This document shows, piece after piece, positions 5,846 through 25,890 of a stretch of DNA of 64,000 nucleotides; position 1 is the first letter of the stretch, and the number at the start of each line of letters is the position of its first letter. Under the pieces are notes generated by a model, which was not told the DNA's origin, searched no databases, and was given only the letters and a program-made list of their open reading frames with translations. Source of the stretch: Prochlorococcus sp. AG-402-O21 (GTDB lineage Bacteria; Cyanobacteriota; Cyanobacteriia; PCC-6307; Cyanobiaceae). The stretch lies in the NCBI GenBank assembly GCA_003216375.1, contig QCIZ01000003.1:1-64000 (forward strand). Reading direction: 5' to 3'. A program made the translations under genes and the position numbers.

Positions 5846-6462
5846 TGGAAAGTAAATTAAGAGTTGGAATAGCTGGTCCAGTTGGATCTGGTAAAACGGC
5901 TATCATTCAGAGACTATGTGAAAACCTTAAAGATCAATTAGAGATCGCCGTAGTAACAAATGATATCTATACTCAAGAAGATGCGAAATTTTTGACTAAT
6001 TCAAAGGCTTTAGCACCAGAACGAATCAAAGGAGTGGAAACTGGAGGATGCCCACATACAGCGATAAGGGAAGATTGCTCTATAAACCGTATTGCGGTTG
6101 AAGAGCTAGAGCATAAATTTACACCTTTAGATTTAGTATTTGTTGAGAGTGGTGGAGATAATCTTGCTGCAAGTTTTAGCCCTGAGTTAGTTGACATATG
6201 TATATATATTATTGATGTCGCGGCAGGGGATAAGATACCCAGGAAAGGTGGACCAGGCATAACACGTTCGGATTTATTAGTGATCAATAAGATTGACCTC
6301 GCTGAAATGGTTGGCGCAAGCTTGAAAATAATGGAGAGGGATACTTTATTAATGAGGAAGAATCTTCCCTGGTGCTTTACCAATACAAAAACAGGGGAAG
6401 GGATAGAAATAATTGAAGAGTTTTTGTGTAATCAGATACCTTCTGATTACAAAAAGGTATAA
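5845..6462 (+). CDS. ureG: urease accessory GTPase UreG
   Basis: SIMIBI-class GTPase that powers nickel transfer to urease, 205 residues, full length. The P-loop GPVGSGKT is at residues 11-18, the metal-binding Cys-Pro-His is at 69-71 (C69 and H71), FVESGGDNL follows, and the guanine-specificity motif NKID lies further on. It starts inside the ureF stop. It is the last gene of ureEFG, followed by the urtA promoter region. Confidence 0.98.
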
Positions 6463-15568: not shown

Positions 15569-16642
15569 TTATCCGAATCCTTGAGGTGCTGTTTTTGTCC
15601 GAACCTTAAACTCCCAAACCGTAATTCCTCCATTTGCATTTATTGCAGCCAAGGCAGTGTCATCAGGATGCCAAGCGATTTGGCTTACAAGGTCACCTGC
15701 AAATGCACCACCAACTGGATCACCCTGACCATCTTTTTGGAGAAACCAAGAAAAAACTGAACCATCGCGCGCGCCAGAAGCTAAAAGCATCCCGCTATGT
15801 GAGAAAGCAAGGCATGAGATGGGTTCGGTATGAAGCATTAACTCTCCTGGCACAGTGCCCTCAGGGCCATCGCCTTGAAAACTCCAAACCGTCACTCGAT
15901 CACTACCCCCGGTAGCAAGGACTGTACCGGTTTGATCAAAAGCTAGATGGCTTGGTTTACCTGGGTAGCCTGTCATCTCTGAATCTTGATCAGTGGAACG
16001 ACGCCAGAAATGAACAGAATTATCCTGACTGCCGCATGCCACTATGTCTCCATTTGGACTAAGCACCATAGATACCAGTGAGCCTCGCCACTCCAACTTT
16101 TGATTGATCTTGTCGCCTACTACATCATAAAAAGTTACTTGGCCGTAGCATGCTGTGGCTAATTCATTGGAATTAGACCAAGAAATCGCGCTGACAGTGC
16201 TGGGATGCTCCTCTGATCGCCAATGTTCTTGACCATTTTCATCAAAAACATAGACGTATTTAGTAAAAACTATTGCTAAAAATTTTCCGTCTGGGGACCA
16301 CTTGATGTGTTCAACCCATCCTTTCCCTAGTTCCAAATTTTTAGTTGACTTACCCTCTTTGCTTTCCCATATACACACATGTCCATCCTGGCCAGCAGTT
16401 GCAAAAGTATTTCCATCTGGATGAATAGACATTGCTAGTAAGCCACCTTTATGTATGTCTTTTGATTGCCAAATAAGCTTTCCAGATTTCCCCTCAAATG
16501 CGTAAAGCCCTCCAGCAACATCACCTACTAAAAAGGTTTTACCTTGTAGTGCCCAGCCGCAGACAATCGCATAGTCGTCAACTTGAGCAGACCAACCTTC
16601 ATGAAGCATTCCTTTTGGACTAAATGCTTCTATACCAGACAT
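15569..16642 (-). CDS. WD40-repeat beta-propeller protein in the zinc operon
   Basis: A 357-residue protein made of about seven WD40-like blades, for example GQDGHVCIWE, GSQDNSVHFW, GGSDRVTVWS, GARDGSVFSW and the final NANGGITVWEF. It has no signal peptide, so it should be cytoplasmic. Beta-propellers usually act as protein-binding platforms; no catalytic residues are expected. Its start overlaps the cobW-like gene by 13 bases, implying coupled translation, so the pair probably works together. A role as partner or client-docking protein for zinc transfer by the GTPase is inference. Confidence 0.85.
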   Translation of the reverse strand: MSGIEAFSPKGMLHEGWSAQVDDYAIVCGWALQGKTFLVGDVAGGLYAFEGKSGKLIWQSKDIHKGGLLAMSIHPDGNTFATAGQDGHVCIWESKEGKSTKNLELGKGWVEHIKWSPDGKFLAIVFTKYVYVFDENGQEHWRSEEHPSTVSAISWSNSNELATACYGQVTFYDVVGDKINQKLEWRGSLVSMVLSPNGDIVACGSQDNSVHFWRRSTDQDSEMTGYPGKPSHLAFDQTGTVLATGGSDRVTVWSFQGDGPEGTVPGELMLHTEPISCLAFSHSGMLLASGARDGSVFSWFLQKDGQGDPVGGAFAGDLVSQIAWHPDDTALAAINANGGITVWEFKVRTKTAPQGFG

Positions 16643-18012
16643 TTGTCAAACTCTTTACTCATTTCTGCTTCATCAAGATTTCTACCGATAAAGACGAGTT
16701 GGTTACGGCGAGGTTCATTGCCCCATTCTTTATCAGGTTGTGCTGTGAAGAGCATGTGTACTCCTTGAAAAACTATTCGCTTAGATTCACCCGCATAACT
16801 AATGAAACCTTTAGTGCGAAATATATCCACACCTTTCTCAGACAAAAGTCGACTTAGCCATCTATTGAGTTTCTCCGGATCTACATCACCCTCTCGCTCG
16901 ATAGCGAATGAACCTACTTCGTCATCGTGTTCGTGTTCAGCTACCCAAACCCTCTCAGCTATTGGAGAAATTGTAGAGATGTTCTGATCATTATCTATCT
17001 CGTCTGTATAAGGAGTATTTACTTTCGTTAATTTCATATTAAATTCTTCCGCTGTATGTTGCGTGAATAGACCTATATCCCTTGACTTATCAACATCTAT
17101 GAAGAAGGACTTAGTCCCTTCGGATTGAAGTTGAAGACTCACATGCTTGCCGACTGGAACCAAATCCCCTGGATTCATAAGTTGTTCTTGTTCTGCGTAG
17201 AGTCTCACGCATGATTCAGCACCTGTGTTAAGAGCTGTCTCGTCTTTACCTTGGTCTAATAACTGGACGAGAGACATTGTGGGGTCTGGACCTTCTTCGA
17301 GCGTAAGTTCATAGCGACCTTTTTCAAGTGAAAAAACACCTGTCCACTCAAATGGGTATTCTGGTTCAAGAAAAGTTGGACGACGCTGAAGTACTTGATC
17401 TAGATCAAAAGCACTTAGATTTAGAACAGTATCAATTGAGACGTCTGCTTGTTTACTGCGTATGACACGAGCCATACGATTCATATCGCGTAGCCGTGAT
17501 TCTAAGTTGTCGAGTGATTCATCTGAAACTAGATCTGTTTTATTTAGGACAAGGACGTCAGCAAAGGCAACTTGCTCCGAACTCTCATCACTTCGACCAA
17601 GTTGTTGCTCTATATGGGCTGCATCAACAAGTGTGACTATTCCATCCAGTGAAAACTCCTCACGGATTTCATCGTCCATAAAGAATGTCTGAGCGACAGG
17701 ACCAGGATCAGCAAGGCCAGTAGTTTCAACTAATACATAGTCAAATTTGTCTCGCCTCTTCATGAGGTTTCCAAGTACACGAATAAGATCACCCCGAACG
17801 GTGCAGCAAATGCAACCATTGGACATCTCGAAGACCTCTTCATCAGCATTGATGACTAATCCCTGATCAATGCCAACTTCACCATATTCATTCTCAATAA
17901 CAGCTATTTTTTTACCGTGCTCTTCGCTAAGGATTCGATTGAGTAGGGTTGTTTTGCCTGATCCTAGAAAACCAGTCAGTATTGTAACCGGTACTTTTTG
18001 CGTGTTGCTCAT
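16630..18012 (-). CDS. CobW/COG0523 G3E GTPase, putative zinc chaperone with an extra domain
   Basis: 460 residues. P-loop GFLGSGKT is at 14-21, the metal-binding CxCC motif is C67-I-C-C70, and the guanine motif NKTD is at 157-160. The CobW C-terminal domain covers about 365-459. A His-rich stretch (HEHDD, 360-364) sits between. Residues 221-326 are an insertion beginning FEWTGVFSLEKGRYEL that is homologous to the insert in ZnuA of the same island. COG0523 proteins deliver metals, notably zinc, to target enzymes using GTP. It lies between an unknown small gene and the WD40 gene, downstream of znuA, which supports zinc rather than cobalamin work. Confidence 0.9.
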   Translation of the reverse strand: MSNTQKVPVTILTGFLGSGKTTLLNRILSEEHGKKIAVIENEYGEVGIDQGLVINADEEVFEMSNGCICCTVRGDLIRVLGNLMKRRDKFDYVLVETTGLADPGPVAQTFFMDDEIREEFSLDGIVTLVDAAHIEQQLGRSDESSEQVAFADVLVLNKTDLVSDESLDNLESRLRDMNRMARVIRSKQADVSIDTVLNLSAFDLDQVLQRRPTFLEPEYPFEWTGVFSLEKGRYELTLEEGPDPTMSLVQLLDQGKDETALNTGAESCVRLYAEQEQLMNPGDLVPVGKHVSLQLQSEGTKSFFIDVDKSRDIGLFTQHTAEEFNMKLTKVNTPYTDEIDNDQNISTISPIAERVWVAEHEHDDEVGSFAIEREGDVDPEKLNRWLSRLLSEKGVDIFRTKGFISYAGESKRIVFQGVHMLFTAQPDKEWGNEPRRNQLVFIGRNLDEAEMSKEFDKCLV

Positions 18013-18021
18013 TTTCTTTAA

Positions 18022-18339
18022 TTAACGATGCGAACAATGAGTGCTATCAAGAGAAATATCAGTTAGCCAATTCTTTTGGATACCCAACAATTCAAGTGAT
18101 TTTAATTCAAAGTCATCAAGCTCATGATAATTGTAAGGAACTTTTAGTCTTACTGTAAGCTTGCTATTTTCTTTTTTCAGCGAATGATTTGAAAATTGAA
18201 GTTCTTTTAGATTGTCATCAAAATCAGTTGCGACAGTAAGTTTTAATATCTTATCTTTATCCCATGGTGGTTTATCCATGAAACTTGCCTGGTCTTCCCA
18301 GTGTTGTTTATAAACTTTATATCCTTTAGTTGGAAACAT
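18022..18339 (-). CDS. unknown small protein between znuA and the cobW-like gene
   Basis: 105 residues from ATG 18339 (MFPTKGYKVYKQHWEDQASF); a TTG three codons upstream is possible. The sequence is polar, mixed alpha/beta, without signal peptide, and ends with Cys and His (DSTHCSHR), a possible metal site. I know no family. It is 9 bases before the cobW-like gene, so it is probably in the same operon. A long hairpin lies directly before its start codon. Confidence 0.65.
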   Translation of the reverse strand: MFPTKGYKVYKQHWEDQASFMDKPPWDKDKILKLTVATDFDDNLKELQFSNHSLKKENSKLTVRLKVPYNYHELDDFELKSLELLGIQKNWLTDISLDSTHCSHR

Positions 18340-18345
18340 TTTTTT

Positions 18346-18381
18346 CAATCCCGTCTACATTTTTAAATGTTGACGGGATTG
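18346..18381 (-). promoter_or_regulatory. long intercistronic hairpin after znuA
   Basis: CAATCCCGTCTACATTT (18346-18362) pairs with AAATGTTGACGGGATTG (18365-18381): a 17-bp stem with one mismatch and a 2-base gap between the arms. On the minus strand it lies 13 bases after the znuA stop and 6 bases before the next ATG, followed by a run of A, not T. It is therefore unlike a normal terminator and may act as an RNA stabiliser, processing site or translation control element. Confidence 0.6.
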
Positions 18382-18393
18382 TATCTGTAAAAG

Positions 18394-19917
18394 TTAAGGA
18401 TTAATTAAAGAATTCCATTTCCCCTCAAGTGCATCGCCCTCTTGCTCATCACATTCTCCACCAAGTGAATTAACAATTGTGCAGGTGTTATGTACAGCAA
18501 CTGAAATAGTATTCCCTGTTGGCATTAGACCGTCAACATAGATTTGATTTGATGCGATAGGAGTGGAAGTTTGTCTACTGAGGTTTCTCAATAGCTTTGA
18601 AGGAGGCTTTTGCTCAGCGAATAAAACTTTCACGTTTTCTTCTTTAAGCTCAGCTAATACAGTTGAAATAGTTTGAGGCCTAAGGCTGGATGAATCACCA
18701 AGAAAATCTAGTAGGCTCATGGTCTTCAATCCAAATGCATCTCCATAATATTCCATGGCTTTGTGCTTAGAAACCATCGTCCTTTGATCAGAAGGAATAG
18801 TAGCTATTTGTTCTTGAGTCCATTGATCTAGATCTTCCAAAATGACATTTACAGATTGAGTTCTTTCTTTTAAAACTTTTTTAGTTTCTCTGTCAAAGAA
18901 GGAAATTTTCTTATTGATATTTTTAGAAATGACATTTCCCATCTTGATGATGTTATGAGGGTCATGCCAGATATGAGGATCTAGCCCACCATGGTCATGG
19001 TGATGATGATGATCGCCTTCATCTGGGACTTGAGCTATAGGTTCAACATCGTCGCCTGAAACATCCTTAAAGAAATGTTCGTCGGCTTCAAACTCAAAAG
19101 GCATATGCTCAGTAAAGAATGCATATTTACCAGCTTTTTTGATTTCTACAGTAAATGTTGTGATGTCTTTCTTCTCATTGAATGAAAGAAAATATGCTTT
19201 TTCCTGCGCAACAAGTTTGTCATTATTGCGTTTGGTTTCTGAATCCTTGGATCCTAATAATTCTTTAGCAAGCTCTTCTGATGCTTCAATATCACCAGAA
19301 TTGAGAATAACCATTTTCATTGCAGGATCCGCATAGTCTCCATCGACTTTGGCAAAAGACCATTTGTATGTTCCTGCTGAAAGATCAAAAACACCAGCCC
19401 ATTCAAAAGCTCCTTCTCCATGGCTATCACCATGATCATCGTGGTCATCATGATCGTCATGTTTAGCAGCTGAATGATCGTCATGATCATCATGCTTAGC
19501 AGCTGAATGATCGTCATGATCATCATGGTCGTCATGTTCGTCTATTTCTATTGCACTTACACCAACGACAACAGTTAAGGGATTATCTAACCATTTTTTA
19601 ATTGCAGGGGTCATCTCTGAACCAAGAGTAAATACTTGATTCGCACTTTTTAGTGTTTGAGCTTGCCTTGGAGTGATCTTGATATCATGAACATCTTGCT
19701 TTCTGTCAATTAAGCAGGTTACGGGCGTAGAGGGTGGTGCAATCGCAGATACAACATCGCAAACCAATGGCTCTACAGCAACAATTGATTTTGTATTTGC
19801 TTGCGCTGTCTGATTGATTCCAGAAAATAAAAATGCTCCAGCAACAAGAGAACTTTTGAGAACTGTTTTATTGATTATCGATTTAACCTTTTTGGACTGA
19901 TTTGAAAAATTCAACAT
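18394..19917 (-). CDS. znuA: zinc ABC transporter, substrate-binding protein with extra inserted domain
   Basis: 507 residues, well above the usual ~300-350. A signal peptide ends near TAQA (37-40). Likely zinc ligands are H78 (DVHDIK), H315 (DPHIWHDPHN), H385 (SKHKAMEYYG) and an acidic residue near E435. A His/Asp-rich loop (about 127-166) and a second His cluster (303-309) are usual for ZnuA loops that collect zinc. Between them, residues 171-285 form an extra domain (FEWAGVFDLSAGTYKW at its start) that is also found in the cobW-like protein. It is divergent from znuC across an 86-base gap with a Zur-type box. Confidence 0.92.
   Translation of the reverse strand: MLNFSNQSKKVKSIINKTVLKSSLVAGAFLFSGINQTAQANTKSIVAVEPLVCDVVSAIAPPSTPVTCLIDRKQDVHDIKITPRQAQTLKSANQVFTLGSEMTPAIKKWLDNPLTVVVGVSAIEIDEHDDHDDHDDHSAAKHDDHDDHSAAKHDDHDDHDDHGDSHGEGAFEWAGVFDLSAGTYKWSFAKVDGDYADPAMKMVILNSGDIEASEELAKELLGSKDSETKRNNDKLVAQEKAYFLSFNEKKDITTFTVEIKKAGKYAFFTEHMPFEFEADEHFFKDVSGDDVEPIAQVPDEGDHHHHHDHGGLDPHIWHDPHNIIKMGNVISKNINKKISFFDRETKKVLKERTQSVNVILEDLDQWTQEQIATIPSDQRTMVSKHKAMEYYGDAFGLKTMSLLDFLGDSSSLRPQTISTVLAELKEENVKVLFAEQKPPSKLLRNLSRQTSTPIASNQIYVDGLMPTGNTISVAVHNTCTIVNSLGGECDEQEGDALEGKWNSLINP
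19417..19540 (-). repeat. tandem His/Asp repeat inside znuA
   Basis: An 11-residue unit KHDDHDDHSAA is repeated, flanked by further HDD triplets, giving a loop of about 40 residues rich in His and Asp (residues 126-166). At DNA level the unit is a 33-base near-exact direct repeat, so its copy number may vary between strains by slippage. It would bind several zinc ions loosely in the periplasm. Confidence 0.85.
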
Positions 19918-19942
19918 TAAAAATATAAAGCGTATCTAAAAC

Positions 19943-19955
19943 GATAATCATTTTC
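19943..19955. promoter_or_regulatory. Zur-type operator between znuA and znuC
   Basis: GATAAT-C-ATTTTC is a 6-1-6 inverted repeat with one mismatch, close to cyanobacterial Zur/Fur-family boxes of the TGATAATNATTATCA type. It is 26 bases upstream of the znuA ATG and about 50 upstream of znuC, so one site could silence both divergent genes when zinc is sufficient. The Zur gene itself is 0.7 kb away. Confidence 0.65.
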
Positions 19956-20006
19956 ATTTGGTCTTGGCAAGTATATTATGTTTCTTGTCAGCAAATCCTC
20001 TAATTG

Positions 20007-20702
20007 ATGCCTAGCTTGATTGCTGAAAATTTGACATATTCTTATTCAAGTAAAATTAAACCTGCTTTAAGCAAGGTTTCTCTAAAGCTTGAGCAAGGTA
20101 CTTTGACTGCTCTTGTTGGTCCAAATGGTGCTGGTAAGTCCACATTATTAAGCTTGCTGCAAGGGAGTAGTAAACCGGATCAAGGGGAAATTACTGTTGA
20201 TGGGAAACCATTGCGAAATAATCGATCTCAAGTGGCTTTAATGCCTCAGAGGGGTAAGCTCAATTGGGATTTTCCAATTACTGTTGAAGGATTAGTTTCT
20301 TTGGGTCGAGTCAATCATTCGAAATCGACTTGTTGTGAATTAGAAGCGGCTCTTCAACGTGTTGGAATATCTCATTTAGCAAAAAGGAGACTTGATGCTT
20401 TGTCTGGTGGACAGCAACAAAGAGCATTACTTGCAAAAACATTAATGAATCCAGCCAAAATTTTTCTTCTTGATGAACCTTGCTCCGCCTTTGACCCTCC
20501 GGCTAAAGAAGATTTCCTGTTAATTATTCGTCAGCTAGCCGATTCGGGGTTCACGGTTTTTGTTAGTAGTCACGACTGGGGAACATCTTTAAATGCCTAT
20601 GACAAGGTTGTTGCTTTAGATAAAATTATTTTGGCTTCTGGTAGCCCTCAGGAAGTTCAAGAAAAACTTAGTTCAATTAATTATTTGAGGTGGAAGTTAT
20701 AG
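20007..20702 (+). CDS. znuC: zinc ABC transporter, ATPase
   Basis: 231 residues from ATG 20007 (a TTG at 20004 is possible). Walker A GPNGAGKST is at 38-46; the LSGGQQQRALLAKTL signature and LLDEPCSAFDP Walker B follow. The sequence is of the metal-type (Znu/Mnt/Zia) ABC class. It energises zinc import through ZnuB. It is divergent from znuA and converges on zur, which lies on the other strand between znuC and znuB. Confidence 0.92.
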   Translation: MPSLIAENLTYSYSSKIKPALSKVSLKLEQGTLTALVGPNGAGKSTLLSLLQGSSKPDQGEITVDGKPLRNNRSQVALMPQRGKLNWDFPITVEGLVSLGRVNHSKSTCCELEAALQRVGISHLAKRRLDALSGGQQQRALLAKTLMNPAKIFLLDEPCSAFDPPAKEDFLLIIRQLADSGFTVFVSSHDWGTSLNAYDKVVALDKIILASGSPQEVQEKLSSINYLRWKL

Positions 20703-20725: not shown

Positions 20726-21130
20726 TTATCCAGCATTCAATTGCTGAGAACAAGTTTGGCAGAGACCAAAGTACTCAAGAGTATGAAACAAAAGCTCAAA
20801 GTTTTTAGAGGTGTTTTTCGACAGATCCATCATTTTGACCGGACATCCCTTCAAGCGTGTGGTTTCTCCACAGCTTACGCAAGTTAAATGATGAATATCT
20901 CTTTCAACTGGTGCATAAAGAACCTCACCGTTGGGAAGATGTCTGGAACGAATCAAACCTTGCTTTACTAGTGCTTGCAGGTTTCGATAGACCGTGGTCA
21001 GTCCCATTGCCTTTTCACCATCATGAAGTTGTCTATGCAGCTCTTGCCCGCTCAATTCATCAGTACAGTTCTTGAGTTCATTGAGCAGTTGTTGTTGTCG
21101 TTTAGTGATTTCAGGCTTGCTTTTACTCAT
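20726..21130 (-). CDS. zur: zinc uptake regulator of the Fur family
   Basis: 134 residues from ATG 21130 (an upstream start adding 12 residues is possible). An N-terminal winged helix (GLTTVYRNLQALVKQGLI is the recognition part) is followed by a dimerisation domain with structural zinc cysteines C84/C87 and C124/C127 and regulatory ligands H80, H81 and H116. Context within znuACB identifies it as Zur rather than Fur. It would repress the divergent znuA/znuC promoter when zinc-loaded. It lies antisense between znuC and znuB. Confidence 0.88.
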   Translation of the reverse strand: MSKSKPEITKRQQQLLNELKNCTDELSGQELHRQLHDGEKAMGLTTVYRNLQALVKQGLIRSRHLPNGEVLYAPVERDIHHLTCVSCGETTRLKGCPVKMMDLSKNTSKNFELLFHTLEYFGLCQTCSQQLNAG

Positions 21131-21183
21131 TAGCAAGATCTTAACTTGATCTCCCTTACTGACCATACTGAATCATTGGCTTA

Positions 21184-21969
21184 ATGTCTTTATTCAATAC
21201 AAATTGGTGGCTAATTCCTCTTTTGATAACTTCCTTTTCAGGAATACTTTGCCCTGCTATGGGAACTGTATTGATCACTCACAAAAGGCTTCTCCAAGTT
21301 AATTTAATTTCGCATTGTGTACTGCCAGGTCTTGCTTTGGCTATGGCGCTTGGTTTGGATCCTTCTATTGGTGGAGTCATCAGCGGATTGGTAGGAGCTA
21401 TTGCAGCAGAAAGCTTGACAAATAAAAAAAATCAAAATTATGAAGCGGTTATGAATACAATTCTTGCTGGTTCGATGGGACTCGGTGTTTTGCTTATACC
21501 TCTACTGGGTATCAGGATTGATTTAGAGGCTGTTTTATTTGGAGATTTATTAACTGCAAATTTGAGTGATCTGCTAAGAACTTTGATCGCTTTCTCGGTA
21601 TTTATTTGCTTGATGCTTTTTGGTTACGACAAGCTTGTTCATATTGGTCTTGATCCAGAAGGAGCTGCTTCAAGTGGAGTTAACGTATCTTTTTTAAATT
21701 TGGCTCTTGGTTTTACTACGGCACTTGTCATTGTGAGTTCAATGTCTGCAGTGGGAGTCATTCTTGTGATTGCGTTACTTTCAACCCCAACTTTGTTGGG
21801 ATTGCAGAAAGCAAGATCTTTATGGATTGCGATGGTTAGATCCTCCATATTTGGATTAATTTTATCGCTTATAGGTTTTTCTCTGGCTATGATTTTGAAT
21901 TTGCCTCCTGGACCTTTGATTAGTGTTCTTTGTGTAATTTCATTGATTTTGCTACGAAACAATAGATAG
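21184..21969 (+). CDS. znuB: zinc ABC transporter, permease
   Basis: 261 residues, ABC-3 family permease with about 7-8 hydrophobic spans. Early segments GILCPAMGTVLITHKRLLQV and SHCVLPGLALAMALG and later LVIVSSMSAVGVILVIALLS and PTLLGLQ are family-typical. It forms the inner-membrane zinc channel with ZnuC. It starts 53 bases from the zur start in the opposite direction, so zur and znuB share a very small divergent region. Confidence 0.93.
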   Translation: MSLFNTNWWLIPLLITSFSGILCPAMGTVLITHKRLLQVNLISHCVLPGLALAMALGLDPSIGGVISGLVGAIAAESLTNKKNQNYEAVMNTILAGSMGLGVLLIPLLGIRIDLEAVLFGDLLTANLSDLLRTLIAFSVFICLMLFGYDKLVHIGLDPEGAASSGVNVSFLNLALGFTTALVIVSSMSAVGVILVIALLSTPTLLGLQKARSLWIAMVRSSIFGLILSLIGFSLAMILNLPPGPLISVLCVISLILLRNNR

Positions 21970-22879: not shown

Positions 22880-23323
22880 TTAGTTAGGGTTTATATGGAT
22901 TGCACAAGGCATCCATAATTCACCCATCTTATGGACACCATTGCATCCGATCTTTTTGGCTTCGATCTCTGCCTGAGCTTTAGTTGGATATGCATATATA
23001 TTTTTTGAAGACGAAGAATCAGAACGATTGATTGACTCCTGAATAGCATTATTTTCTGGACTCCATACCTTTAGACCCATGGTTGTTATTCCGGCGGAAA
23101 ATATTCCCATTCCTACTATTGAGGCATTTAATACTCCCATGGCTACAGCGCCAATAGAAACGACACCCATGGGAACAATTCCAATGCTCACAATTCCCAT
23201 TGGAACAATTCCGATAGAAATGAATCCAAGTGGTGCTATCCCAATCGCAATTTTTTTAGGTTTACTTCCACAATGAGAAGGACCTTCTGATGCTTCCTTC
23301 TTAGAAGTATGTGAAGTTTTCAT
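22880..23323 (-). CDS. decapeptide-repeat protein with C-terminal DUF3721-like motif
   Basis: 147 residues. Residues 25-84 are six tandem ten-residue repeats with consensus (V/I)SIGIVPMG(I/V). The C-terminal part (109-142) has the DUF3721 pattern: Tyr-Pro-Thr-Lys-Ala-x-Ala-Glu, then GCNGVHKMGELWMPC. C127, H131, C140 and H143 look like a metal site. The repeats may form a beta-helix or membrane-buried stack. There is no clear signal peptide. It follows the next gene (23336-23584) by 12 bases on the minus strand, so both are probably one operon within the zinc island. Confidence 0.75.
   Translation of the reverse strand: MKTSHTSKKEASEGPSHCGSKPKKIAIGIAPLGFISIGIVPMGIVSIGIVPMGVVSIGAVAMGVLNASIVGMGIFSAGITTMGLKVWSPENNAIQESINRSDSSSSKNIYAYPTKAQAEIEAKKIGCNGVHKMGELWMPCAIHINPN
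23072..23251 (-). repeat. six tandem 30-bp repeats (decapeptide coding)
   Basis: The coding DNA for residues 25-84 repeats every 30 bases, with units at residues 25, 35, 45, 55, 65 and 75. The two central units (35-54) are nearly identical; the outer ones have drifted. Period, Met-Gly at positions 8-9 and Gly at position 4 are kept in most copies. This is a protein-level repeat, not a CRISPR array: there are no spacers. Confidence 0.85.
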
Positions 23324-23335
23324 TGCTTAAACTTT

Positions 23336-23584
23336 TTAGTGATGATGGTGATGTCCCTCATGTTTTTCTCCTTTTTCATGAGCATCATGACTTTTGCAAG
23401 GCATCCATTTGTCACCCATTTTATGAGCACCCTTGCAATTGAAATCCTTGGCAGCGTTTTCAGCTTCTTTTCTAGTATCAAAGAGGGCACGAGTACTGCT
23501 TATTTCTGAGTTACTTGAACAGCCCATTAGTGAGAATGACAGTGACATAACCAAAACAGAAACAATAGGCTTAAGGGTTTTCAT
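23336..23584 (-). CDS. DUF3721 lipoprotein with histidine-rich tail
   Basis: 82 residues. A lipoprotein signal ends in the lipobox LMGC with C22. The DUF3721 segment reads TRKEAENAAKDFNCKGAHKM followed by GDKWMPC. The tail is rich in histidine (HDAHEKGEKHEGHHHHH), so it should bind zinc or another soft metal at the membrane surface. It is first in a two-gene minus-strand unit with the decapeptide-repeat protein and divergent from the zinc-island porin. Confidence 0.8.
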   Translation of the reverse strand: MKTLKPIVSVLVMSLSFSLMGCSSNSEISSTRALFDTRKEAENAAKDFNCKGAHKMGDKWMPCKSHDAHEKGEKHEGHHHHH

Positions 23585-23817: not shown

Positions 23818-25080
23818 GTGCTAGGAAAAAGAAAGCCTAAATTATATAAAGTAGTAAAACTAGCAACACTAGTTAAAAATTTGAAAAATCTCAGTAAAAT
23901 TCTTCTATTCCCTGTTGCGATAGGTCTTCTTGCTCCAGCAGCTGTCGAAGCTGGAGGTGGCGATCATAAAGGTCATCATGATCACCATGGTGGTGATATG
24001 AATATGGGGGATTCATATCCTTCAACTATGTTTATGGGAAAAACGACTTTTGTTTTGGGTGGAGTAGATGGCGTAAGTGATTCTGGAATGGGTGGAATGG
24101 GTGGAATGGGTGGAATGGGTGGAATGTCTACTTCTGAGGAAAAGGATGGGACAGTTTTTCATTACGATACAAAGCTGATGTTTATGACCAGTTTTACTGG
24201 CCAAGACATGCTTAAGACTGCTGTTCGCGTAGGTAATTTTGGCATGATGGAGCCTTTCGGGATGATGGGTGAGGCAAGATTAGATACTGCCTTTAGTAGT
24301 AGTGATTCGTTAGAGCTTCACAAGGCTTATTACCAATTCCCGGTTGGAGGCGATATTCAAGTAACTTTTGGCCCCAAGCTCCGCCAAGATGATTTGCTTG
24401 GAGTTTGGCCTAGTACTTATCCAGGTGATGGAGTTTTGTTCGTCTTAAATCAGGCAGGTGCGAATGATACTTATTCCAAAAAGATGGGTGCTGGAGCTGG
24501 TATTACTTGGTCCAATGAAAAGTTAGTTGCTTCTGCACTTTTCGTTTCAGAAGACGCATCAAATTCTTCGATTGGCTTCTTAGCGGATGAAGGTAAAGAC
24601 CACATAACAACTCAATTGGCATGGGTTGATGAGAAATTTACTCTTGCAGCTGCATATACACAGGCTGATAACGGGAAGACTGATAATTCTCCTGATGTTA
24701 ACGACTACTCTTCTTTTGGCATTAGTGGTAGCTATCAATTTGGAGATGACTATAGCTTGAGTGCAGGAATGGGATGGAAAAATCCTGATAATGAGGATAG
24801 CCCTGACACTGCGATGAATAAGGTGGAGGATGGTAATACATGGTCTGTTGGATTCTTATGGAATGATGCGTTTGTTGAGGGAAATAAGCTTGGTTTTGGC
24901 ATTGGAACAGCTGAAACACATAGAGATGACATTGGCTATGACGATCCTTTGGCTTGGGAGGCTTTTTATGATTTCAAAGTGAACGATAGCGTTACAGTTA
25001 CTCCAGCTGTCTTTGTTATCGAGAAAGATGGCAAAGAAGACGTTAATGGAGCTTTGGTGAAAACCACTTTTAAGTTCTAG
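23818..25080 (+). CDS. His/Met-rich outer-membrane porin of the zinc island
   Basis: 420 residues from GTG 23818; a TTG at 23881 would give a more standard signal peptide (MKNLSKILLFPVAIGLLAPA) and may be the true start. After the signal cleavage near VEA comes a His-rich segment (DHKGHHDHHGGDMNM) and a GMGGM repeat, then an OprB/SomA-like beta-barrel ending in the aromatic C-terminus TTFKF. There is no SLH domain. The barrel resembles the porin at the window start. Together with Znu genes and DUF3721 lipoprotein, it may be a zinc-permeable porin; the substrate is inferred. Confidence 0.8.
   Translation: MLGKRKPKLYKVVKLATLVKNLKNLSKILLFPVAIGLLAPAAVEAGGGDHKGHHDHHGGDMNMGDSYPSTMFMGKTTFVLGGVDGVSDSGMGGMGGMGGMGGMSTSEEKDGTVFHYDTKLMFMTSFTGQDMLKTAVRVGNFGMMEPFGMMGEARLDTAFSSSDSLELHKAYYQFPVGGDIQVTFGPKLRQDDLLGVWPSTYPGDGVLFVLNQAGANDTYSKKMGAGAGITWSNEKLVASALFVSEDASNSSIGFLADEGKDHITTQLAWVDEKFTLAAAYTQADNGKTDNSPDVNDYSSFGISGSYQFGDDYSLSAGMGWKNPDNEDSPDTAMNKVEDGNTWSVGFLWNDAFVEGNKLGFGIGTAETHRDDIGYDDPLAWEAFYDFKVNDSVTVTPAVFVIEKDGKEDVNGALVKTTFKF
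24085..24126 (+). repeat. 9-bp microsatellite in the porin gene
   Basis: GGAATGGGT is repeated four times exactly with a partial fifth copy, coding for Gly-Met-Gly repeats (GMGGMGGMGGMGGMGGM). As the unit is a multiple of three, slippage would change length without breaking the frame. The Met-rich loop might bind soft metals. Confidence 0.9.
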
Positions 25081-25143: not shown

Positions 25144-25890
25144 CTAATAATTTTTACCGAAATTTGACTGCTGTTTAACAAGCTCGAAGAACTCCTGCTT
25201 CAAACTTGCATCATGACGAAAATCACCCCTAACAATTGAATTGATCATGCTGGTTTCTGGCTCTTTTACTCCTCTCCATTTCATACAATAATGTTGAGCT
25301 TTAACAAGAATTGCAAGGCCTTTAGGTTCACACAAACGTTCTATTTCATCGGCAAGAATCATTACGGCTTCTTCTTGGATATGTGGTCTAGAAAAAACCC
25401 AATCAGCTACTCTTGCAAACTTAGAAATTCCAATAACTTTTTCTCCTGGTTTTATTCCTATCCAGCAATCTCCAAGAATTGGAACAAAGTGATGAGAACA
25501 TGCAGATCGAACAGTAATTGGACCAAGTGTATAAATCTCGTCTAAATTTCTATCATTAGGGAAATTGGTTACTTTAGGTTGAGGGTGGTATCTGCCTTTG
25601 AATACTTCATTGAGATACATTCTGGAAACTCGTTCAGCAGTCTCTTGAGTGTTGTGGTCATTATCAACATCAATCAATAAAGTTTTCAGCAAATCTCTAA
25701 CTCTCGTTGCAACTTCTCTCTCAAGAGTTTCTAATTCTCCAGGTTGAATAAAATCAGAAATATTATCATTTGCATGGAATCTAGCTCCATTGGCTTGAAT
25801 GCGTTCGCGAATTATTTCTGAGACTAATTTGCAAGAAATTTTATCTTTTAAATTATCCTTAACATTCTCATTAGGAGCAGTAGAAGTCAT
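25144..25890 (-). CDS. folE: GTP cyclohydrolase I (zinc-dependent FolE1)
   Basis: First enzyme of tetrahydrofolate synthesis, turning GTP into 7,8-dihydroneopterin triphosphate. 248 residues, with a ~50-residue N-terminal extension. Zinc ligands C131 and H134 (SACSHHFVP) and C202 (HYCMKWRG) are present, so this is the zinc-dependent type, not the zinc-independent FolE2 that Zur controls elsewhere. It converges on the porin gene. Lying next to the zinc island may be chance, but FolE is a known type of client for COG0523 zinc chaperones. Confidence 0.95.
   Translation of the reverse strand: MTSTAPNENVKDNLKDKISCKLVSEIIRERIQANGARFHANDNISDFIQPGELETLEREVATRVRDLLKTLLIDVDNDHNTQETAERVSRMYLNEVFKGRYHPQPKVTNFPNDRNLDEIYTLGPITVRSACSHHFVPILGDCWIGIKPGEKVIGISKFARVADWVFSRPHIQEEAVMILADEIERLCEPKGLAILVKAQHYCMKWRGVKEPETSMINSIVRGDFRHDASLKQEFFELVKQQSNFGKNY

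Follow-up and report, generated by a model that had tools for sequence, protein, structure and literature searches.

An unnamed mobile domain of metal-trafficking proteins, shared by the ZnuA-type binding protein and the COG0523 GTPase of a Prochlorococcus zinc cluster

One domain in two neighbouring genes

The window analysed here, a stretch of 64,000 nucleotides from Prochlorococcus sp. AG-402-O21 (contig QCIZ01000003.1; genome of 1.76 Mb), contains a zinc cluster in which neighbouring genes encode a ZnuA-type substrate-binding protein and a COG0523 GTPase (Table 1). Each of the two proteins carries an insert, and the inserts are copies of one domain, found only in these two genes of the genome, where no third copy is present. 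Judged from sequence, they represent a real, unnamed and mobile domain family of metal-trafficking proteins, whose putative function is that of an accessory metal site.

The inserts begin with FEWAGVF at residue 171 of ZnuA and with FEWTGVF at residue 221 of the GTPase. In BLASTP they share 31 of 112 residues (33.9 bits, E 1e-7); their Smith-Waterman score of 87 is equalled by none of 2000 shuffles (mean 29.0, standard deviation 4.9, maximum 49), and a profile-profile comparison of 8 ZnuA-type with 21 GTPase-type rows, kept apart, gives a probability of 99.0 and an E-value of 3.6e-18 over 104 columns. The homology suggested in the initial annotation is thus confirmed at the level of sequence. 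The starts given there are also correct, while the segments 171-285 and 221-326 are slightly short, the limits 170-293 (ZnuA) and 220-332 (GTPase) fitting the family alignment better. As had been described, the ZnuA insert lies between two His-rich loops, and the GTPase insert follows the NKTD motif and precedes the C-terminal CobW_C domain, ending 26 residues before the EHEHDD (from residue 359) that opens the latter.

Table 1. Features of the zinc cluster, in window coordinates
Feature	Positions	Strand	Profile match
WD40-repeat protein; 13-base overlap of its start with the end of the GTPase gene	15569..16642	-	PF00400, E 1.2e-30
COG0523 GTPase, 460 residues, host of one domain copy	16630..18012	-	PF02492, E 1.4e-61; PF07683, E 2.2e-26
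EHEHDDEVGS motif C-terminal of the GTPase domain copy, residues 359-368	16909..16938	-	
Domain in the GTPase, residues 220-332	17017..17355	-	
Frame of 108 residues between znuA and the GTPase gene	18022..18348	-	no Pfam match
znuA, ZnuA-type substrate-binding protein, 507 residues, host of the other copy	18394..19917	-	PF01297, E 1.2e-47, in two stretches
Second His-rich loop, C-terminal side of the ZnuA domain copy, residues 301-311	18985..19017	-	
Domain in ZnuA, residues 170-293	19039..19410	-	
Invariant E275 (GTPase E323)	19093..19095	-	
Invariant H271 (GTPase H319)	19105..19107	-	
Invariant D197 (GTPase D243)	19327..19329	-	
Invariant E172 (GTPase E222)	19402..19404	-	
His/Asp-rich loop preceding the ZnuA domain copy, residues 127-169; its DNA contains repeats of 9 and 33 bases	19411..19539	-	
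Zur-box-like site in the znuA-znuC interval, with 2 mismatches to the consensus	19942..19956	.	
ABC-transporter ATPase, znuC position, divergent from znuA	20004..20702	+	PF00005
FUR-family regulator, Zur position, between the ATPase and permease genes	20726..21166	-	PF01475
ABC-3 permease, znuB position	21184..21969	+	PF00950

The binding protein matches PF01297 with 163.1 bits (cut-off 29), as two lobes. It resembles other ZnuA-type, cluster A-I binding proteins in its scaffold and in a His-rich loop at the expected place, followed by DPHIWHDP, but differs from them by an extra folded domain of about 124 residues inside this loop. To our knowledge, the domain is absent from ZnuA proteins of the E. 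coli and Synechocystis types. The GTPase has the cobW and CobW_C domains of COG0523 (G3E) proteins together with a P-loop (residues 14-22), the CxCC motif (CICC, 67-70) and the NKxD motif (NKTD, 157-160). With its WD40 and znuABC neighbours, and on these neighbours alone, it fits COG0523 subfamily 5, for which such neighbours are described by Haas et al. (2009, PMC2770081); the available passages of their account of this subfamily do not mention an inserted domain. What sets the window protein apart is a clean insertion between FLE(P)E and HEHDD: domain-less sister proteins read FLEED-AHEHDETVGS where the window protein reads FLEPEYPFEW...EHEHDDEVGS.

Host proteins, fold and a predicted metal site

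Hosts of known kind are mostly of the two types seen in the window. Among the 224 distinct frames of the loci fetched at that stage, 118 are ZnuA-type and 104 COG0523; the remaining 2 are a COG0523 frame truncated where its contig ends and a haloarchaeal ZnuA copy that is broken. The wider search foreseen in the initial annotation brought to light haloarchaeal ZnuA proteins, stand-alone proteins and a single membrane protein. The domain occurs in 11 of 72,556 plasmid records, namely in four haloarchaeal binding proteins, three COG0523 proteins, three stand-alone haloarchaeal proteins and one membrane protein of Alicyclobacillus. The plasmid COG0523 protein P0005 was read whole; a frame from Paraburkholderia begins past the P-loop, with an IS21 transposase gene upstream, and the copy from Pantoea soli has no annotated gene beneath it. 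On a Haloarcula halophila plasmid (L154/L157, record positions 362293-362657), a second domain-bearing ZnuA gene copy is split over two frames, and in L246 (genome G022) a COG0523 frame contains a TAG within the match, and its tail looks WD40-repeat-like by eye.

In the stand-alone and membrane hosts, profile comparison confirms the domain (E 3.8e-28 and 2.7e-25). The stand-alone, secreted-type proteins have 183-208 residues, with DHEHEHDD or DHEHEHED ahead of the domain and more histidines behind it, and appear by eye to open with a lipoprotein signal. The one on plasmid pNVE414 of Natrinema versiforme (L262:3959-5426) directly follows a urease operon with its accessory genes, urease being a nickel enzyme. 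In the 303-residue Alicyclobacillus protein, the domain interrupts a His stretch between two hydrophobic halves, and the neighbouring genes encode a metal-sensitive repressor (PF02583) and two annotated cation transporters. Scans of the whole protein, each flank and the joined flanks found no Pfam or NCBIfam family above chance; a single motif suggests a likeness to nickel/cobalt efflux permeases. A 59-residue match in Acidithiobacillus caldus also adjoins the gene of a metal-sensitive regulator.

AlphaFold models of the two window copies (mean predicted local distance difference test, pLDDT, of 93.3 for each; predicted template modelling scores 0.84 and 0.86) are both beta-sandwiches with one helix of 13-15 residues. 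The order of strands and helix is identical, so that the two copies are predicted to share one fold. The GTPase model was built from GTPase rows alone; the ZnuA model is not fully independent of it, since its 27 alignment rows include both kinds. As the initial annotation had supposed, no named family covers the inserts: Pfam profiles for ZnuA and for cobW/CobW_C flank them in the window proteins with nothing in between, and no Pfam, NCBIfam, PHROGs or PDB-sequence entry matches the domain. Structural comparison is equally sparing. Foldseek returned no match at E <= 0.001, and the best rows of the fold search are a GOLD-like region of SEC14-like proteins (GTPase copy: Z 6.6, 3.1 Å, 88 residues; ZnuA copy: Z 4.6, 3.4 Å, 88 residues). 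Although these GOLD-type and CBM35-type sandwiches are the best fold neighbours, the GOLD rows have only 7-9% identity and scores tied with other sandwiches; the fold search indicates a general beta-sandwich arrangement; a Z under 8 may reflect just a common arrangement, and absence from the fold lists excludes nothing. In 30 members scanned against Pfam, ZinT gave no match at E <= 1, and its calycin-type fold is not among the fold matches listed, an absence that excludes nothing. Cupredoxin PF00127 (2 of 30 members, best E 0.096) and CBM35 PF16990 (2 of 30, best E 0.021) stay below the cut-off, and the zinc uptake protein ZrgA (NF047873; 31.8 bits against a cut-off of 185) covers residues 85-167, that is the His loop, outside the domain.

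Zinc in seawater is largely complexed by organic ligands, and CBM35 and CBM6 chains appear among the fold matches with Z of 4.6-5.3. The domain might hence bind an organic metal ligand or a sugar, in the manner of carbohydrate-binding modules, instead of a bare ion. Such Z values fall in the range of mere common arrangements, with nothing significant in Foldseek, and the cytoplasmic GTPase copies would not meet these ligands; a role of this kind is quite improbable.

In 30 representative copies the invariant columns are, in the numbering of the ZnuA copy, E4, D29, P30, L76, H103, E107 and F108, of which the two glutamates, the aspartate and the histidine are the sole polar residues. Across 222 distinct copies, all rows that have the column retain E4 and D29 (213/213 each) and H103 and E107 (215/215 each), and the four are kept in six further plasmid copies read by eye. 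H271 of ZnuA and H319 of the GTPase, whose alignment had been pointed out from the window alone, both belong to this set. Histidines also abound next to the domain. By a rule of at least 3 histidines in a 12-residue window within 60 residues of the domain, a His-rich stretch follows it in 119 of 119 ZnuA-type frames and precedes it in 88 of 119; of 109 GTPase frames, 99 have HxH[D/E] no more than 60 residues behind it, and 8 further frames of other or broken hosts are mixed in this respect.

Since the known kinds of host all handle transition metals, copies of the domain adjoin His stretches, and the E/D/H/E set never varies, the plainest reading is that of a metal site. We propose that the domain, a beta-sandwich of some 115-125 residues with a single helix, is a portable unit working as an accessory transition-metal site, a reading to which we give slightly better than even odds (roughly 0.55). 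The four invariant residues would form the site; the flexible His stretch would collect the ion, which the domain would hold firmly and then pass to the host's own site, either the ZnuA cleft or the CxCC/GTP site of the GTPase. In the window, the Zur-type cluster makes zinc the likeliest metal; nickel or cobalt are possible elsewhere, nickel being indicated in Natrinema by the adjoining urease genes. Several points weigh against this proposal. Invariant glutamate, aspartate and histidine can also serve structure, and the predicted site is deduced from conservation; a His-rich flank by the above rule is present in just 5 of 109 GTPase copies, whose equivalent is the short HxHD/E, and even this is missing within 60 residues in 10 of 109.

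A rigid spacer that positions the His stretch and binds nothing would agree with the constant location of the domain beside a loop or linker, and with the longer His/Asp loop of two domain-less Prochlorococcus ZnuA proteins. Such a spacer would have no need, however, to retain the E/D/H/E set throughout 222 distinct copies, which come from cyanobacteria, proteobacteria and haloarchaea, or to exist alone as a secreted-type protein, and we regard it as rather improbable.

Beta-sandwich domains often bind proteins, and the initial annotation had thought of a zinc-docking module. As a protein-docking domain, it would let the hosts meet a common partner, for example the WD40 protein in the case of the GTPase and the permease in that of ZnuA, through a face formed by the conserved residues. 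A WD40 gene indeed neighbours the domain-bearing GTPase in 99 of 100 loci. It also lies beside 4 of 5 domain-less sister GTPases, which makes the partnership older than the domain. Moreover, as the importer copies are secreted-type and the GTPase copies cytoplasmic, no single partner could be reached by both, and the invariant polar residues are limited to E, D, H and E, with no varied face. Docking therefore seems unlikely, and the accessory metal site remains our preferred reading.

Exchange between host kinds and movement among importers

The domain is common in the window's order and scattered elsewhere. With the ZnuA-type query, 111 of 250 genomes of the order match; judged by E-values, 95 of these have the importer form and the other 16 just the weaker GTPase form. 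With the GTPase-type query, 24 of 292 genomes of the phylum match, a count that includes G493 (E 0.0019, in a 5248-residue frame), regarded as chance; the distant GTPase copies G250, G275, G278 and G290 come from assemblies with 1-7% stated contamination, and their phylum membership may be wrong. Matches are found in 6 of 321 genomes in the class of L082 (3 importer, 3 GTPase), in 5 of 337 in the class of L076 (1 importer, 4 GTPase) and in 2 of 398 in a Pseudomonadota sample. Public species contigs yield 263 confirmed stretches, and among the best 80 of these 263, 77 are labelled cyanobacterial. Outside Prochlorococcus, such patchy presence fits transfer.

The two host forms need not occur together. 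Small alphaproteobacterial genomes (G969, G1068) have the GTPase-type domain and no detected PF01297 protein, and the marine Synechococcus genomes G018 and G025 have the domain in the GTPase only. The converse is seen in gammaproteobacterium G507, one of the two Pseudomonadota matches, with the domain in ZnuA only and GTPases that align just over residues 3-215 (E 1e-31 or weaker). G969 and G1068 fall in the same class as L076 and are 1.4 Mb in size. In several Synechococcus genomes (L175, L178, L185, L190), the domain-less ZnuA has as its neighbour a protein of 325-397 residues with GTGVTFSF or GTGVTFTF at its C-terminus and, in many cases, a stretch rich in His and Asp; by eye it resembles an outer-membrane protein, perhaps a zinc receptor.

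Prochlorococcus itself shows loss and doubling. Two of its ZnuA proteins, L172 (G050) and L173 (G017), found at 63-66% identity, have one continuous, longer His/Asp loop in place of the domain, which is most simply explained by loss; nine genomes of genus g2 have no importer-type match, these two being the ones read. At the other extreme, 19 distinct Prochlorococcus ZnuA frames (for example L036, L038 and L086) contain two domains in tandem. Their number fell from 21 when L030 and L143 (genome G019) were recognized as an assembly artefact, an 838-residue frame with an N run between repeated ends. The doubling is not recent, since in the tree the sampled first copies group apart from the sampled second ones.

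In the domain tree, from which rows L157 and L143 were dropped, ZnuA-type and GTPase-type copies are the two sides of one branch (support 99/96; 200 of 200 bootstrap trees), which means that the exchange between host kinds is old. The initial annotation had considered a module copied between this very importer and this chaperone, which the tree does not support. A recent duplication between the two window genes has in its favour that they are neighbours in one cluster. The window ZnuA copy is, however, 73-77% identical to ZnuA copies labelled gammaproteobacterial or SAR11 and only about 25% identical to the GTPase copy, and, with the two kinds of copy on opposite sides of the branch, a local duplication is rejected by the tree, barring an erased gene conversion; its probability is practically negligible. 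When stand-alone, membrane and further GTPase copies are added, importer and stand-alone copies group together (98/93), the GTPase group loses certainty, being united on one side of a branch in 52% of 200 bootstrap trees, and the membrane copy falls weakly among the GTPases (48/31).

Among the GTPases, the 17 domain-bearing proteins of 37 form one side of a branch (95/89), pointing to a single gain as far as sampled. The nearest domain-less COG0523 proteins are 61-64% identical over the GTPase half. Both G902 and G1115 have a domain-bearing and a domain-less COG0523 GTPase, 61-63% identical over this half.

Among the importers the domain has moved. Compared with the window ZnuA, domain and scaffold identities are 77 and 26% for L082 (labelled Halothiobacillaceae), 74 and 22% for L087 (Gammaproteobacteria), 77 and 24% for L076 (Pelagibacteraceae) and 66 and 25% for L163 (a genome of the gammaproteobacterial class). 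Domain and scaffold change similarly elsewhere, with identities of 89/80, 72/64 and 74/62% within Prochlorococcus, 73/72 and 71/81% in haloarchaea and 79/71% between L082 and L087, so that the 77/26 split is not an effect of rate. In a tree of 39 scaffolds with the domain removed, domain-bearing proteins occupy four places: Prochlorococcus; L163; L076 with L082 and L087; and haloarchaea. Five changes are needed, all five forced by starred branches, one of them inside Prochlorococcus (L172 and L173). The L163 scaffold groups with domain-less proteins that may be AztC-like, a name drawn from the NCBIfam AztC score of the window host. In addition, the third-position G+C of the domain is 0.336 in L082 and 0.360 in L087, values at or below which lie 0 of 245 and 0 of 219 windows of other genes there (overlapping windows of 125 codons, in comparison genes chosen by the author). 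This low G+C is compatible with a recent arrival from an A+T-rich source, for instance a marine oligotroph. These sequence comparisons show the domain to have moved alone among importers.

Some observations count against solo movement. The scaffold tree was built by a quick method, carries a long-branch warning and uses 39 of the 49 binding proteins wanted, the other 10 having been dropped for want of a DPHxW anchor; L163 and L076 have no contrast in codon composition; and the contrast between domain and scaffold in the third bases of identical codons is not clear (51 of 91 against 21 of 39 for the window and L082). The last point would also suit a history of inheritance or transfer of entire ZnuA genes, with a domain that simply evolves at a slower pace than the rest, as would the possibility that L076, L082 and L087 share one scaffold group (support 87, not starred). 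That history is highly improbable, given that rates elsewhere are alike and leave the 77/26 split unexplained, that domain-less scaffolds adjoin domain-bearing ones at several places in the tree, and that in both L082 and L087 the codon composition of the domain is unlike that of the remaining locus.

Movement of the domain alone leads to a broader proposal, held only tentatively and with the odds somewhat against it. The domain could be a mobile metal-site cassette that hops as a unit between non-orthologous importers of cyanobacteria, SAR11-type and other proteobacteria, and that has, at least once, passed the divide separating importers outside the cytoplasm from a GTPase inside it. Under the favoured metal-site reading, too, the domain in importers would be inserted, deleted or duplicated in frame by recombination in the repetitive DNA that encodes His and Asp on either side. 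DNA repeats are found in the left His loop only, and because no repeat family of at least 14 bases joins the left and right loops, the recombination mechanism is one that we infer. As to carriage by viruses, phage records hold no match, and none of 34 pattern matches in viral contigs was confirmed.

The zinc cluster, known systems and meaning

The Zur-box-like site of Table 1 is the sole match with at most two mismatches to the consensus in the window; the scan gave 15 matches in total against 9.1 expected, a number reached by 5 of 100 shuffles. Promoter and terminator scans found fewer sites than in shuffles, and their results were not used. Further along the window are two adjacent DUF3721 proteins (22880-23323 and 23336-23584), the second with the C-terminus GHHHHH, and a 420-residue frame (23818-25080) with a His- and Met/Gly-rich start and no Pfam match, porin-like by eye. 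They are followed by a GTP cyclohydrolase I gene (25144-25890), which is presumably linked to zinc limitation. An additional cobW-domain match lies in a 207-residue open frame on the plus strand (5863-6369).

Accessory zinc domains added to the binding protein of an importer are exemplified by AdcA-ZinT and ZinT/YodA. The working idea would be the same as in AdcA-ZinT, whereas the domain described here is inserted in the His loop instead of being fused C-terminally, and is also found in a cytoplasmic GTPase. In the system described in PMC6689063, an A-I binding protein receives its zinc from AztD, the periplasmic zinc chaperone of AztC. Unlike the present domain, which is built into the binding protein, AztD is a protein of its own. 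The passages available of PMC8786288 assign a metal-collecting role to the His loop of ZnuA and leave the metal of picocyanobacterial Zn/Mn binding proteins open. Those of Mikhaylina et al. (2022, PMC9337993) show that Zur controls the znuA/znuC cluster of Synechococcus WH8102, in which the two genes are divergent, and those of PMC9010474, on diatom zinc proteins, do not concern the domain. In the titles, abstract starts and passages of the open-licence literature, no description of the domain was found.

Prochlorococcus lives at picomolar zinc, and the domain is present in both its importer and its chaperone. Natural genomes with zero, one or two copies in the same importer offer ready-made comparisons. 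If the domain binds metal, it would be a transplantable affinity part for importers and chaperones; if not, it would still be a clear case of solo domain movement between non-orthologous transport proteins. Should the cassette proposal hold, the His loops would be landing sites as well as metal collectors, and the metal affinity of ocean microbes would be tuned by the gain, loss and doubling of a cassette.

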